56,502 nucleotides of DNA from the IMG/VR virus record IMGVR_UViG_3300047476_001839, positions 1-56,502 of that record, one strand, 5' to 3'. Within the stretch, counting starts at the first letter, position 1; each line of letters begins with the position of its first letter. This document shows positions 7,236 through 32,561 of this stretch, piece after piece. Source of the DNA: a virus. Made by a program: the position numbers and the translations under genes. The notes below the pieces were generated by a model that was not told the DNA's origin, ran no database searches, and worked only from the letters and a program-made list of their open reading frames with translations.

Positions 7236-7820
7236 TTATACCTTTTTCTTTGAATTTATTACAGAATCGATTAACCCATAGGCCTTTGCTTCTTCTGCAG
7301 ACATGTAACAATCTCGATCACAATCTTTCTCTAACTTTTTAATTGTTTGACTTGTATGTGTAGATAAGATTTCGAGGAGCTGTTTATATAATTTATTTGT
7401 TTCCGCCACTTGAATGTTAATATCTGCAGCGGTACCAGAAAATCCACTACTTACCTGGTGGATCATAATTCGAGAATGAGGAAGCGCTGATCTTTCTCCA
7501 GTTCCACCAGCTAAAAGAACTGCACCCATAGAAGCGGCCAATCCAATGCACGTAGTATTAACAGGTGCACTAATGGTATGCATGACGTCGTAAATAGCTA
7601 AGCCTGCAGAAACAGATCCCCCAGGAGAGTTAATATAAAACTCAATTGGCATGTTACGATCTTCCTTATCCAAAAACATCATTTGAGCAATAAGGGAATT
7701 CGCAACAAAATCATCAACACCAGTACCGAGGAAAACAATTCTATCTTTTAAAAGTCTTGACCAAATATCATAGGATCTTTCACCGGTAGCAGATTTTTCA
7801 ATAACAAAAGGTGTGTACAT
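7236..7820 (-). CDS. clpP: ClpP-family serine protease
   Basis: Full-length ClpP (194 aa) with Ser97 in AASMGA, His121 in MIHQ and Asp170 in the DRDCYMSAEEA segment, so the catalytic triad is complete. It also has the NSPGGSV oxyanion strand and the YGLID C-terminal motif. It should form a barrel protease with host Clp ATPases or self-assemble for virion or host protein processing. Co-transcribed with the glycosyltransferase. Confidence 0.92.
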   Translation of the reverse strand: MYTPFVIEKSATGERSYDIWSRLLKDRIVFLGTGVDDFVANSLIAQMMFLDKEDRNMPIEFYINSPGGSVSAGLAIYDVMHTISAPVNTTCIGLAASMGAVLLAGGTGERSALPHSRIMIHQVSSGFSGTAADINIQVAETNKLYKQLLEILSTHTSQTIKKLEKDCDRDCYMSAEEAKAYGLIDSVINSKKKV

Positions 7821-21965: not shown

Positions 21966-22252
21966 TCTCGGGTGGTGGAACGGTATACACGATGGACTTA
22001 GTCTAAAATTTGAGTGCTTAAAGAGAAATCTTTAATGTAGAATCCTGTAAATTCGGTGAACCCTTTTGAATGGGAATACCGAGCGAAGCCTGAAAAGGAA
22101 CGTGTAGAGACTTGACACAGGACATCTAAAGTAGAAATACTATGATGAAGGTAAAGTCCAGACCACAAACAGGTTTAATCTGGTAATGAAAATTATAGTG
22201 GTAAGAAAATCCATTGGCGCAAGCCTTACGAGTTCGAATCTCGTCCCGAGAA
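21966..22252 (+). tRNA. tRNA-Leu(UAA) interrupted by a group I intron
   Basis: Acceptor arms TCTCGGG (21966-21972) and CCCGAGA (22245-22251) pair perfectly. The anticodon stem ATGGA/TCCAT, a class II variable arm (GGC-GCAA-GCC) and T-arm ACGAG/CTCGT are present. Joining 21999 to 22206 gives the 7-nt loop CTTAAAA, anticodon UAA. CCA is not encoded. The spliced tRNA would be 81 nt. Confidence 0.9.
22000..22205 (+). other. group I self-splicing intron (206 nt)
   Basis: The insertion lies between U34 and A35, the classic position of the cyanobacterial tRNA-Leu(UAA) intron. The 5' exon ends in U, the intron ends in G, and GAGT at 22011-22014 can pair with exon ACUU to make P1 with the U-G pair. 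Core-like elements are GAGCGAAGCC (Q/P4-like), GTAGAGACTTGACAC (R/P7-like) and AAGGTAAAGTCC (S/P7-like). Confidence 0.85.
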
Positions 22253-22309
22253 TTGAACAGGTAGACGCATCTTCTATGTATAATATATATATATGTAGGA
22301 GGTGCGTTT

Positions 22310-23002
22310 ATGTTTAACTGCCCAGAAATAAATCAAATTATAAAAGAGTCTACTTCTATTTCTCAAGTACTTAACAAACTTGGGCTTAAAGCCGCTGGAG
22401 GTAATTATCGTACATTTGATAGATTCGTTAAAAAGAACAATATAGATACTTCGCATTTTACTGGTCAGCTTTGGAGCAAAGGTAAACAACTTCCACCTAA
22501 AAAAGATTTGAAAGAATATCTATGTGAAGGAATTAAAATAACAAGCCACAGATTAAAACAAAGATTGATTAGAGAAAATATCTTTGAACACAAATGTTAT
22601 ATATGTAACATGGATGAATGGATGGGTAAACCAATTCCATTAGAACTAGATCATATAAATGGCGAACACGATGATAATCGCTTAGAAAACTTGAGAATAA
22701 TTTGCCCTAACTGTCATGCTCAAACAGATACATACAGAGCTAAAAATCGGCGTGACAAAAAACCTGTTAAAGACAAGATTGTTAAAGAGATAATTAAATA
22801 TCATTGTCCTGACTGCAGTAAAGAAATACATAAAGAATCTAAATTCTGTGAAGAATGTAGTCACAAAAAATCAAGAAAAGTGGAACGTCCTGATTTGCAA
22901 ACACTTGTGAATGATATTAAGAATTTAGGTTATAGTGCTACCGGAAGAAAATATGGCGTATCGGATAATGCAATTAGGAAATGGGTGAAAAATAGTTCTT
23001 GA
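22310..23002 (+). CDS. HNH endonuclease with terminal HTH segments
   Basis: Cys96-x2-Cys99 ... LELDHINGEHDDNRLENLRI ... Cys132-x2-Cys135-His is a zinc-stabilised HNH nuclease. The termini have helix-turn-helix-like segments and a second CxxC pair follows. It starts 58 bp after the intron-bearing tRNA, so it may be the homing enzyme that spreads the intron, or an independent freestanding element. RBS AGGAGGTG. Confidence 0.85.
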   Translation: MFNCPEINQIIKESTSISQVLNKLGLKAAGGNYRTFDRFVKKNNIDTSHFTGQLWSKGKQLPPKKDLKEYLCEGIKITSHRLKQRLIRENIFEHKCYICNMDEWMGKPIPLELDHINGEHDDNRLENLRIICPNCHAQTDTYRAKNRRDKKPVKDKIVKEIIKYHCPDCSKEIHKESKFCEECSHKKSRKVERPDLQTLVNDIKNLGYSATGRKYGVSDNAIRKWVKNSS

Positions 23003-24374: not shown

Positions 24375-24638
24375 ATGAACGATATTTTAACTAAAGTTGA
24401 TTTTCCTACAAAAAAAGGTGCATTGTATCTTTACAAAGGCAAATATAAAGTTATTGGTGATGAGATTCATGATGGTATTACTGTAATTCGTACTTCCAAA
24501 TGTTCAGAAGGATATTTCAGTTACACATCCATCAGATTCGGTGGATTTGAATATCACTCTGAAAAAGATACCAAAAGTAAAATGGTTGAAAAAAAGTTCT
24601 TTGGTGGAGAATGGTTTGAAATAAATGAGGGTGGGTAG
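24375..24638 (+). CDS. hypothetical 87-aa protein after structured leader
   Basis: I start at ATG 24375, just beyond the 14-bp stem; the frame reaching 24291 would run through all the hairpins. Beta-rich, basic protein (KGALYLYKGKYKVIGDEIHDG) of small-barrel type. Not recognised. Its last codons overlap the 5' end of the next tRNA-like gene. Confidence 0.5.
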   Translation: MNDILTKVDFPTKKGALYLYKGKYKVIGDEIHDGITVIRTSKCSEGYFSYTSIRFGGFEYHSEKDTKSKMVEKKFFGGEWFEINEGG

Positions 24639-24697
24639 CTTAATAGTAAAGCAGAGGATATAAACCTTTGAAATGGGTGTAATTCCCATCCCACTTA
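24629..24697 (+). tRNA. tRNA-like gene, anticodon uncertain
   Basis: GGGTGGG/CCCACTT acceptor (two G-U), GCTT/AAGC D-stem, AGAGG/CCTTT anticodon stem and ATGGG/CCCAT T-arm. The loop ATATAAA read literally gives AUA, an unusual A34 anticodon. The T-loop TGTAATT and a three-base variable loop are also atypical. It may be a degenerate or specialised tRNA. Confidence 0.5.
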
Positions 24698-29099: not shown

Positions 29100-29732
29100 A
29101 TGTTCTTACAAATGGATCACCCTAAAAATGTTGTTTTCGATGTTGACCCTTGGTTGCATATTAAACCAGAAGAAGCAATGGAAGCACCGGTTTCTGTTTA
29201 TGTAAATGAGTTCTCTGAGGAAGCTGTTAGAATTTTCCTTGAAGACATTACTAAAGCAAACAATACATCACAACCAATCATTCCTATTTATATTGATTCA
29301 TATGGTGGGGATGTGTATGCTTTAATGGCCATGATTGATATTATTGAAAGTTCAGAAAAACCATGTGCTACTATTTGTGTTGGAAAAGCAATGTCCTGTG
29401 GTGCTGTTCTTCTTGCTTGTGGTGAAAAAGGCCACAGATATGTAAGTAATAACTCAACAATAATGATTCACGATGTATCTTCATTTTCAGAGGGCAAATC
29501 CGAGGAAATTAAATCAGATGCAGCAGAGACAGATAGATTGCAAAAACAGTTCTATAAGTTGCTCGACAGAAAATGCGACAGGAAGGATGGATACTTTGAT
29601 AAATTGGTTTTTAACAAAGGTAGATCGAATTTGTATTTGGATGCTGAACAATGCATAAAGCACGGTTTAGCTGATGAAATTAAAATACCAAAGTTTACTG
29701 TCGAGATTGTGCATAACATTATATTTGAGTAG
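29100..29732 (+). CDS. divergent ClpP-like protease
   Basis: This 210-aa S14 peptidase has Ser99 in KAMSCGA and His124 in MIHD. At the place of the catalytic Asp it has Asn177 (RSNLYLDAEQ), so activity may be altered. It is only distantly like the ClpP at 7236. ATG follows the palindrome by three bases; AAAGG in the palindrome's right arm serves as RBS. Substrate unknown; virion-maturation or host-protein processing are possible. Confidence 0.8.
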   Translation: MFLQMDHPKNVVFDVDPWLHIKPEEAMEAPVSVYVNEFSEEAVRIFLEDITKANNTSQPIIPIYIDSYGGDVYALMAMIDIIESSEKPCATICVGKAMSCGAVLLACGEKGHRYVSNNSTIMIHDVSSFSEGKSEEIKSDAAETDRLQKQFYKLLDRKCDRKDGYFDKLVFNKGRSNLYLDAEQCIKHGLADEIKIPKFTVEIVHNIIFE

Positions 29733-32063: not shown

Positions 32064-32561
32064 ATGGAAGAAATCACTTTACAAAAATATGTAAACCTAA
32101 ATTATTCAACAAGAAAAATTGCTGAGTTAATGCAATCAAGCCAAACCAATGTAAGACATTATTTAAAGAAATACAACTTAAAAACAAATTTAAACCAGTT
32201 CAATCAATCAGAGTACTTATGTAAATGTGGTGAAGCAAATCCTGAAAAGTTTTATGGCCATTCAAAGAAGACTTGCTCAAAATGCCACAATTTAAGGACA
32301 ACAAAAGTAGGTAAAAACAATCGATTATTTGCTGTTGAGTATTTAGGTGGTAAATGTATCGAATGTGGTTACAACAAACATACTTGTGCTCTTGATATAC
32401 ACCATTTAGACCCATCAATTAAAGATAAAAATTTTAATCATATGAGAGGATGGTGTAAGGAACGAATTTTGAATGAAATTAAAAACTGTGTTTTACTTTG
32501 CAGAAATTGTCATGCAGAAGTTCATTCAGGTCATATTGTTTTAAAAGATGTGATACAATAA
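32064..32561 (+). CDS. HTH-HNH endonuclease next to tRNA cluster
   Basis: An N-terminal helix-turn-helix (STRKIAELMQSSQTNVRHYL, about 15-34) is followed by a zinc ribbon (CKCG...CSKC), then an HNH core: Cys98-x2-Cys101, Asp111-x-His113-His114, and CRNCHAEVH. Probably a freestanding mobile endonuclease. It sits between tRNA-Thr and tRNA-Arg, like the HNH gene after tRNA-Leu. Confidence 0.85.
   Translation: MEEITLQKYVNLNYSTRKIAELMQSSQTNVRHYLKKYNLKTNLNQFNQSEYLCKCGEANPEKFYGHSKKTCSKCHNLRTTKVGKNNRLFAVEYLGGKCIECGYNKHTCALDIHHLDPSIKDKNFNHMRGWCKERILNEIKNCVLLCRNCHAEVHSGHIVLKDVIQ

Follow-up and report, generated by a model that had tools for sequence, protein, structure and literature searches.

A group I intron in a phage tRNA-Leu(UAA) gene and an adjacent HNH endonuclease gene that may act together in homing

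The window analysed here is a 56.5-kb viral contig (IMGVR_UViG_3300047476_001839, positions 1 to 56,502) which carries rIIA, rIIB and head-protease genes, in keeping with the phage-like genome that an earlier note, made from the sequence alone, had described. Its rIIA shares less than 40% identity with known phages, taking the best among the matches listed, and its two ClpP-like head maturation protease genes lie at 7236-7820 (minus strand) and 29100-29732 (plus strand). With introns allowed, ARAGORN called a tRNA-Leu(UAA) gene at exactly 21966-22252, interrupted by a 206-nt intron between U34 and A35 (position 34|35); without the intron option no tRNA was called there. The 5' exon (21966..21999, on the plus strand, as are all features of the locus given below) ends in GGACUU, the final base being U34, the intron (22000..22205) has no open reading frame inside and a terminal G at 22205, and the 3' exon (22206..22252) ends without an encoded CCA, the sequence from 22253 onward being TTGA. 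The joined exons measure 81 nt and fold as a class II tRNA-Leu(UAA) with the anticodon loop CUUAAAA. The earlier note had proposed this split gene, with a 206-nt insert between U34 and A35 and a class II fold after joining, and was right to the base; the missing CCA was also borne out. UUA makes up 26% of the leucine codons in the ORFs sampled. A tRNA at 24629-24697 was called as tRNA-Tyr with the anticodon AUA, a call which may be wrong; A34 is unusual in a tRNA-Tyr.

That the insert in tRNA-Leu(UAA) is a group I intron we regard as nearly certain. It aligned end to end with the Rfam model Intron_gpI (RF00028, model positions 1-253) at 46.1 bits (E = 9.9e-11), slightly below the curated cutoff of 50, so that it goes undetected when the whole window is scanned with Rfam at default settings. 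A second covariance model, derived from 30 other tRNA-Leu introns with the window left out, gave a full-length match of 199.3 bits (E = 1.7e-56) that ends exactly at G22205, and its next best match elsewhere in the window scored 4 bits. A group I covariance-model match, which the earlier note had named as a check on its reading, was thus obtained, at a high score with the dedicated model and somewhat short of the cutoff with the Rfam one. The whole pre-tRNA also folds better than its shuffles (z = -3.06).

In a structure alignment of 36 tRNA-Leu introns from phages, proteobacteria and cyanobacteria, helices P1 to P9, including the P7 pseudoknot, were paired in 96.7% of cells, with two-sided changes in 30 of 48 pairs and a covariation score of 0.518 vs 0.169 when shuffled. 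P1 (21996..22015) joins exon ACUU (21996-21999) to intron GAGU (22012-22015), with a U34.G22012 wobble at the splice site; this U.G pair (U21999.G22012 in the window) is present in all 36 sequences, and the P1 pairs are invariant save the outermost. A stretch of UUU at 22009-22011 could form a P10 with exon AAA at 22206-22208. The P3 to P6 block (22043..22122, including P5 and P6) contains P3 (22043-22048/22117-22122), all pairs of which show compensatory changes, and P4 (22053-22058/22077-22082). The P7 pseudoknot, the guanosine-binding helix (22107..22159, with strands 22107-22113/22154-22159), is paired in 36/36 sequences and has one pair that covaries in 12 of them, and the alignment also supports P8 (22123-22126/22144-22147) and P9 (22184-22187/22192-22195). 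P1, P4, P7 and the terminal G are all as first described from the letters. Judged from its sequence, the ribozyme core looks intact, and the closeness of the intron to cyanobacterial and proteobacterial tRNA introns suggests that it belongs to group IC3.

As a textbook case of an ancient intron, that of tRNA-Leu(UAA) has been examined mostly in cyanobacteria and plastids. The introns of cyanobacteria, plastids and proteobacteria share with the window the gene, the 34|35 site, the U34.G pair of P1 and the core motifs, and bacterial relatives in tRNA-Leu(UAA) were found in alphaproteobacteria, Bacteroidota, Acidobacteria and cyanobacteria. Among annotated phages, an intron in tRNA-Leu(UAA) is carried by a 735-kb huge phage and by Agrobacterium phage Atu_ph07, whose paper, when searched, yielded no mention of introns (PMC6102473). 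A P4-based pattern search found at least 120 viral stretches; 53 of 125 loci lie in tRNA genes, and 48 phage loci are tRNA-Leu(UAA) interrupted at 34|35 after correction of shifted boundaries, some ARAGORN intron calls as tRNA-Tyr(AUA), Phe(AAA) or Ser(AGA) being dismissed as really tRNA-Leu(UAA) with a shifted boundary. Further phage hosts of the intron are tRNA-Arg(UCU) and tRNA-Thr(UGU), in which loci L085, L100 and L110 have the same intron type at 34|35, with an HNH gene just downstream in L110. Other intron-bearing phage tRNAs (L021, L032, L057, L071, L117) have a UAA anticodon and the short variable loop of a class I shape, and need not be leucine tRNAs. Related intron cores were also seen at loci L004, L005 and L006: in capsid genes of pelagiphage HTVC120P and a Chosvirus, and in a crAss-like phage, where the core separates pieces of dnaB next to a GIY endonuclease.

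The earlier note had placed the insert at the position of the cyanobacterial intron, implying a tie to it, and had suggested a tree with cyanobacterial introns; the gene and the 34|35 position are borne out, but the tie to the cyanobacterial lineage is not supported. In the core tree computed with all columns, the window intron lies in a phage clade (100/99), and the nearest bacterial introns, from Bradyrhizobium, fall just outside it (96/80). The window intron clusters with six introns that have an internal HNH ORF (support 99/97 with all columns, 99/98 once the P4 columns used in the search are removed), and cyanobacterial introns form a separate clade (100/96 with all columns and one long-branch stray, 95/85 without the P4 columns). 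The site is shared by many bacteria and phages and the window groups with phage introns, which makes the cyanobacterial reading weak. It is highly improbable, in our view, that the phage took the classic intron from a cyanobacterial host: such an origin would account for the identical gene and position, and an AU test on the short alignment did not reject a clade of the window with cyanobacteria (p = 0.35), but the best trees keep the cyanobacterial introns apart, and the sequences of P4 and of the P7-P9 junction match phage and alphaproteobacterial introns. Moreover, none of the cyanobacterial intron loci fetched had near it a member of the HNH family with which the phage group of the window is linked.

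This family is represented in the window by a gene (22310..23002) that starts 57 nt downstream of tRNA-Leu(UAA) and encodes a 230-aa HNH endonuclease matching phrog_10822 (E = 5.4e-62). It is a full-length ORF with a ribosome-binding site (RBS), and residues C96, C99, H115, N127, C132, C135 and H136, which make up the HNH motif and zinc cysteines in invariant columns, are all intact. AlphaFold2 modelled residues 71-140, the catalytic region, with pLDDT >90; compared with the PDB, the model gave no significant match, the best rows including HNH nucleases at E >= 0.1. The protein searched alone against viral contigs found no relatives, which were found instead with an alignment of 12 HNHs. The earlier note held that the locus bears on how the intron moves, and so it does, but by way of this adjacent gene, which had been missed. 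A second HNH gene in the window (32064-32561), of another family (phrog_2255), is part of the other tRNA cluster, with tRNA-Thr on one side and tRNA-Arg on the other.

Each of the six sister introns in the clade of the window intron carries an HNH ORF in the P1 loop, where it separates the 5' splice site from the guide sequence. Elsewhere among phages, members of the family either occupy a different loop of the intron, in sense or antisense orientation, or immediately flank the intron-bearing tRNA, downstream in some cases and upstream in others. In two Bacilli MAGs (L180, L234) the HNH gene is inside the tRNA-Leu(UAA) intron; a rubrerythrin-like gene is found near L234, which may be chromosomal. 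On the HNH tree the window protein was not firmly placed and did not group with those encoded in the sister introns, which leaves an exit of the ORF from the window intron itself conjectural. HNH homologs were found beside other tRNAs in 14 of 85 rows.

In order to count how often intron and HNH gene occur together, we picked intron-bearing loci by intron sequence only and intronless controls by tRNA sequence only, dereplicated the loci, and scored an HNH within 1 kb of the tRNA or inside the intron. The window family was present at 17/38 intron-bearing phage tRNA-Leu(UAA) genes and at 4/108 unselected intronless ones (p = 1.3e-8), a comparison in which the intron-bearing loci are those where the association was first noticed, the intronless controls being the sole new loci. 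When the window HNH was the only query, the counts before dereplication were 22/45 and 4/109. Approached from the protein, 77 of the best 80 HNH relatives, retrieved on protein similarity alone, had a tRNA no more than 400 nt away, and the nearest one was usually tRNA-Leu(UAA), intron-bearing or not (about 62 of 79 counting shifted calls); the seed alignment consists of intron-linked HNHs, which makes this count partly circular, as the 17/38 vs 4/108 count is not.

These counts bear on a rival explanation of the locus, namely that the intron is an immobile resident inherited with its tRNA gene, its HNH neighbour being there by chance where tRNA genes abound. The absence of an ORF from the window intron and the frequency of HNH genes in phage tRNA clusters, which the second one in the window illustrates, would both suit a resident intron. 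We nevertheless give this explanation little credence, given the association itself, the patchy presence of the intron among close HNH relatives, for which the best HNH tree requires 15 or more changes of state, and its exact absence from a relative with homologous flanks. The last is a clean empty site, L284 having the intron and L287 lacking it, with the gap exactly between ACTT and AAAATC. Other paired alignments of loci with and without the intron were set aside as empty sites, as their tRNA exons had diverged.

The anticodon arm provides a second link between the HNH family and the insertion site. The unaltered arm, RGACUU|AAAAUCY, is found in 56/56 intron-bearing genes, and among intronless genes in 5/30 of those flanked by the HNH gene (dereplicated) vs 80/104 of those without it (p = 3e-9), a difference that could partly reflect phage lineage. 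The HNH tree has nine supported independent pairs in which one member has the intron and the other lacks it; six to nine of them run in the expected direction and none in the opposite one. The natural reading is that a genome with the HNH gene survives if its arm is split by the intron or changed; alternatively, unaltered arms beside the HNH gene quickly gain the intron. Both tie the HNH to the site of intron insertion. The five HNH-flanked intronless genes with an unaltered arm, L287 among them, imply either that their enzymes cut elsewhere or that the rule leaks.

Cutting elsewhere is also the essence of another explanation, in which the HNH acts in the tRNA cluster as a free-standing endonuclease comparable to SegB of phage T4, its cut lying somewhere other than the anticodon arm (downstream of the tRNA, for instance) and the intron being only a passenger in co-conversion. 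About 35 relatives do lie beside an intronless tRNA-Leu(UAA) at similar spacing, and the target of SegB is a tRNA intergenic region (PMC2988022). Yet many phages and the two Bacilli MAGs encode this family within the intron itself, using two or more loops and both orientations, and altered arms are far commoner at HNH-flanked than at unflanked intronless genes, so that we consider this explanation unlikely.

Starting from the observed intron anatomy, HNH family, association and altered arms, we think it probable that intron and HNH gene are functionally coupled by homing at the anticodon arm; the splicing, cleavage site, homing and loss of an intronic ORF that this entails are inferred from sequence. 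The 206-nt ribozyme would leave the tRNA-Leu(UAA) pre-RNA by ordinary guanosine-started group I splicing, with P1 presenting the U34.G splice site, P7 binding the guanosine and the terminal G marking the 3' site, and would thereby restore the CUUAAAA anticodon loop, which reads UUA. The HNH protein encoded 57 nt downstream would be the homing endonuclease of the locus, most likely recognising and cutting the uninterrupted tRNA-Leu(UAA) anticodon arm of a co-infecting phage; the break would then be repaired from the intron-bearing copy, bringing intron and HNH gene across together by collaborative homing. The donor would be protected, its HNH target being split by the intron. The ancestors of the window intron were probably introns with an HNH ORF in the P1 loop, this ORF having presumably been lost from the intron, with a related HNH now outside. 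We are evenly divided on a broader proposal, that one HNH family of phages has become a specialist for the tRNA-Leu(UAA) anticodon arm, where it moves a group I intron by collaborative homing, phages escaping by means of the intron or of changed anticodon-stem pairs, and the HNH gene having repeatedly entered different intron loops or sat outside. If such a specialised family exists, phages would be a standing vehicle for tRNA-Leu introns.

An endonuclease specific for the region of a tRNA anticodon that holds a group I intron has a reported precedent in the Synechocystis tRNA-fMet intron, which Bonocora and Shub are said to have described in 2001; that system is bacterial, however, its endonuclease is intron-encoded and its tRNA is a different one. 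Collaborative (trans) homing is known in phage protein genes, from cyanophage S-PM2 F-CphI, T3/T7-like phages and the mobE/nrdB intron of T4 (PMC2988022, PMC3984707, PMC10448857). The arrangement of the window, an ORF-less intron (22000-22205) beside a free-standing HNH gene (from 22310), is that of these systems, but its host gene is a tRNA, its endonuclease family is also found inside the same intron in relatives, and the cleavage is presumed. Its state, with an ORF-less intron nested among ORF-bearing ones and a related HNH outside, fits the idea of endonuclease turnover raised in PMC10448857. According to a 2014 review, all phage group I introns then known were in protein genes (PMC3984707). 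In the part of the Lak megaphage report concerned with them, introns in tRNA genes are called enigmatic, with tRNA-Tyr and tRNA-Thr as named examples; these too are introns in phage tRNA genes, and that part describes no link to an endonuclease (PMC6784885). Our literature search, which covered few subscription journals, found no paper on an HNH tied to tRNA-Leu(UAA) introns. The locus belongs to a large phage branch of the tRNA-Leu(UAA) intron that appears coupled to an endonuclease family, in intron-encoded, adjacent and intronless-with-altered-target states. The occurrence of this family inside or beside the same intron in other phages suggests how tRNA introns spread, and in one type of locus it becomes possible to test directly both how an intron in a tRNA gene moves and how an endonuclease passes from free-standing to intron-encoded.

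Expression of the HNH gene may itself be under control, since a predicted RNA hairpin (22253..22317; -29.6 kcal/mol, z = -7.15 vs shuffles) places the AGGAGG and AUG of the gene in its stem. The motif TATAAATA, which we take to be the late promoter motif of T4, was looked for in this hairpin and is absent, and the whole window is not enriched for it. In relatives, TATAAATA occurs in 21/34 tRNA-HNH spacers vs 1.4 expected, and 18/34 spacers fold at z <= -2. Therefore, a late-timing control is suggested for the relatives only. Homing endonucleases of T4, including SegB in its tRNA region, are held back by hairpins that cover the RBS (PMC2988022). SegB, a free-standing GIY-YIG enzyme, resembles the window gene in lying in a phage tRNA cluster behind such a hairpin (PMC2988022), and the window differs in its HNH family, tied to one tRNA species and its intron, and in the lack of the late-promoter motif from its hairpin. 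In the tRNA-HNH spacers of loci L244-L323, TATAAATA lies in or near the pre-HNH hairpins in most cases, which resembles the control of the T4 homing endonucleases.
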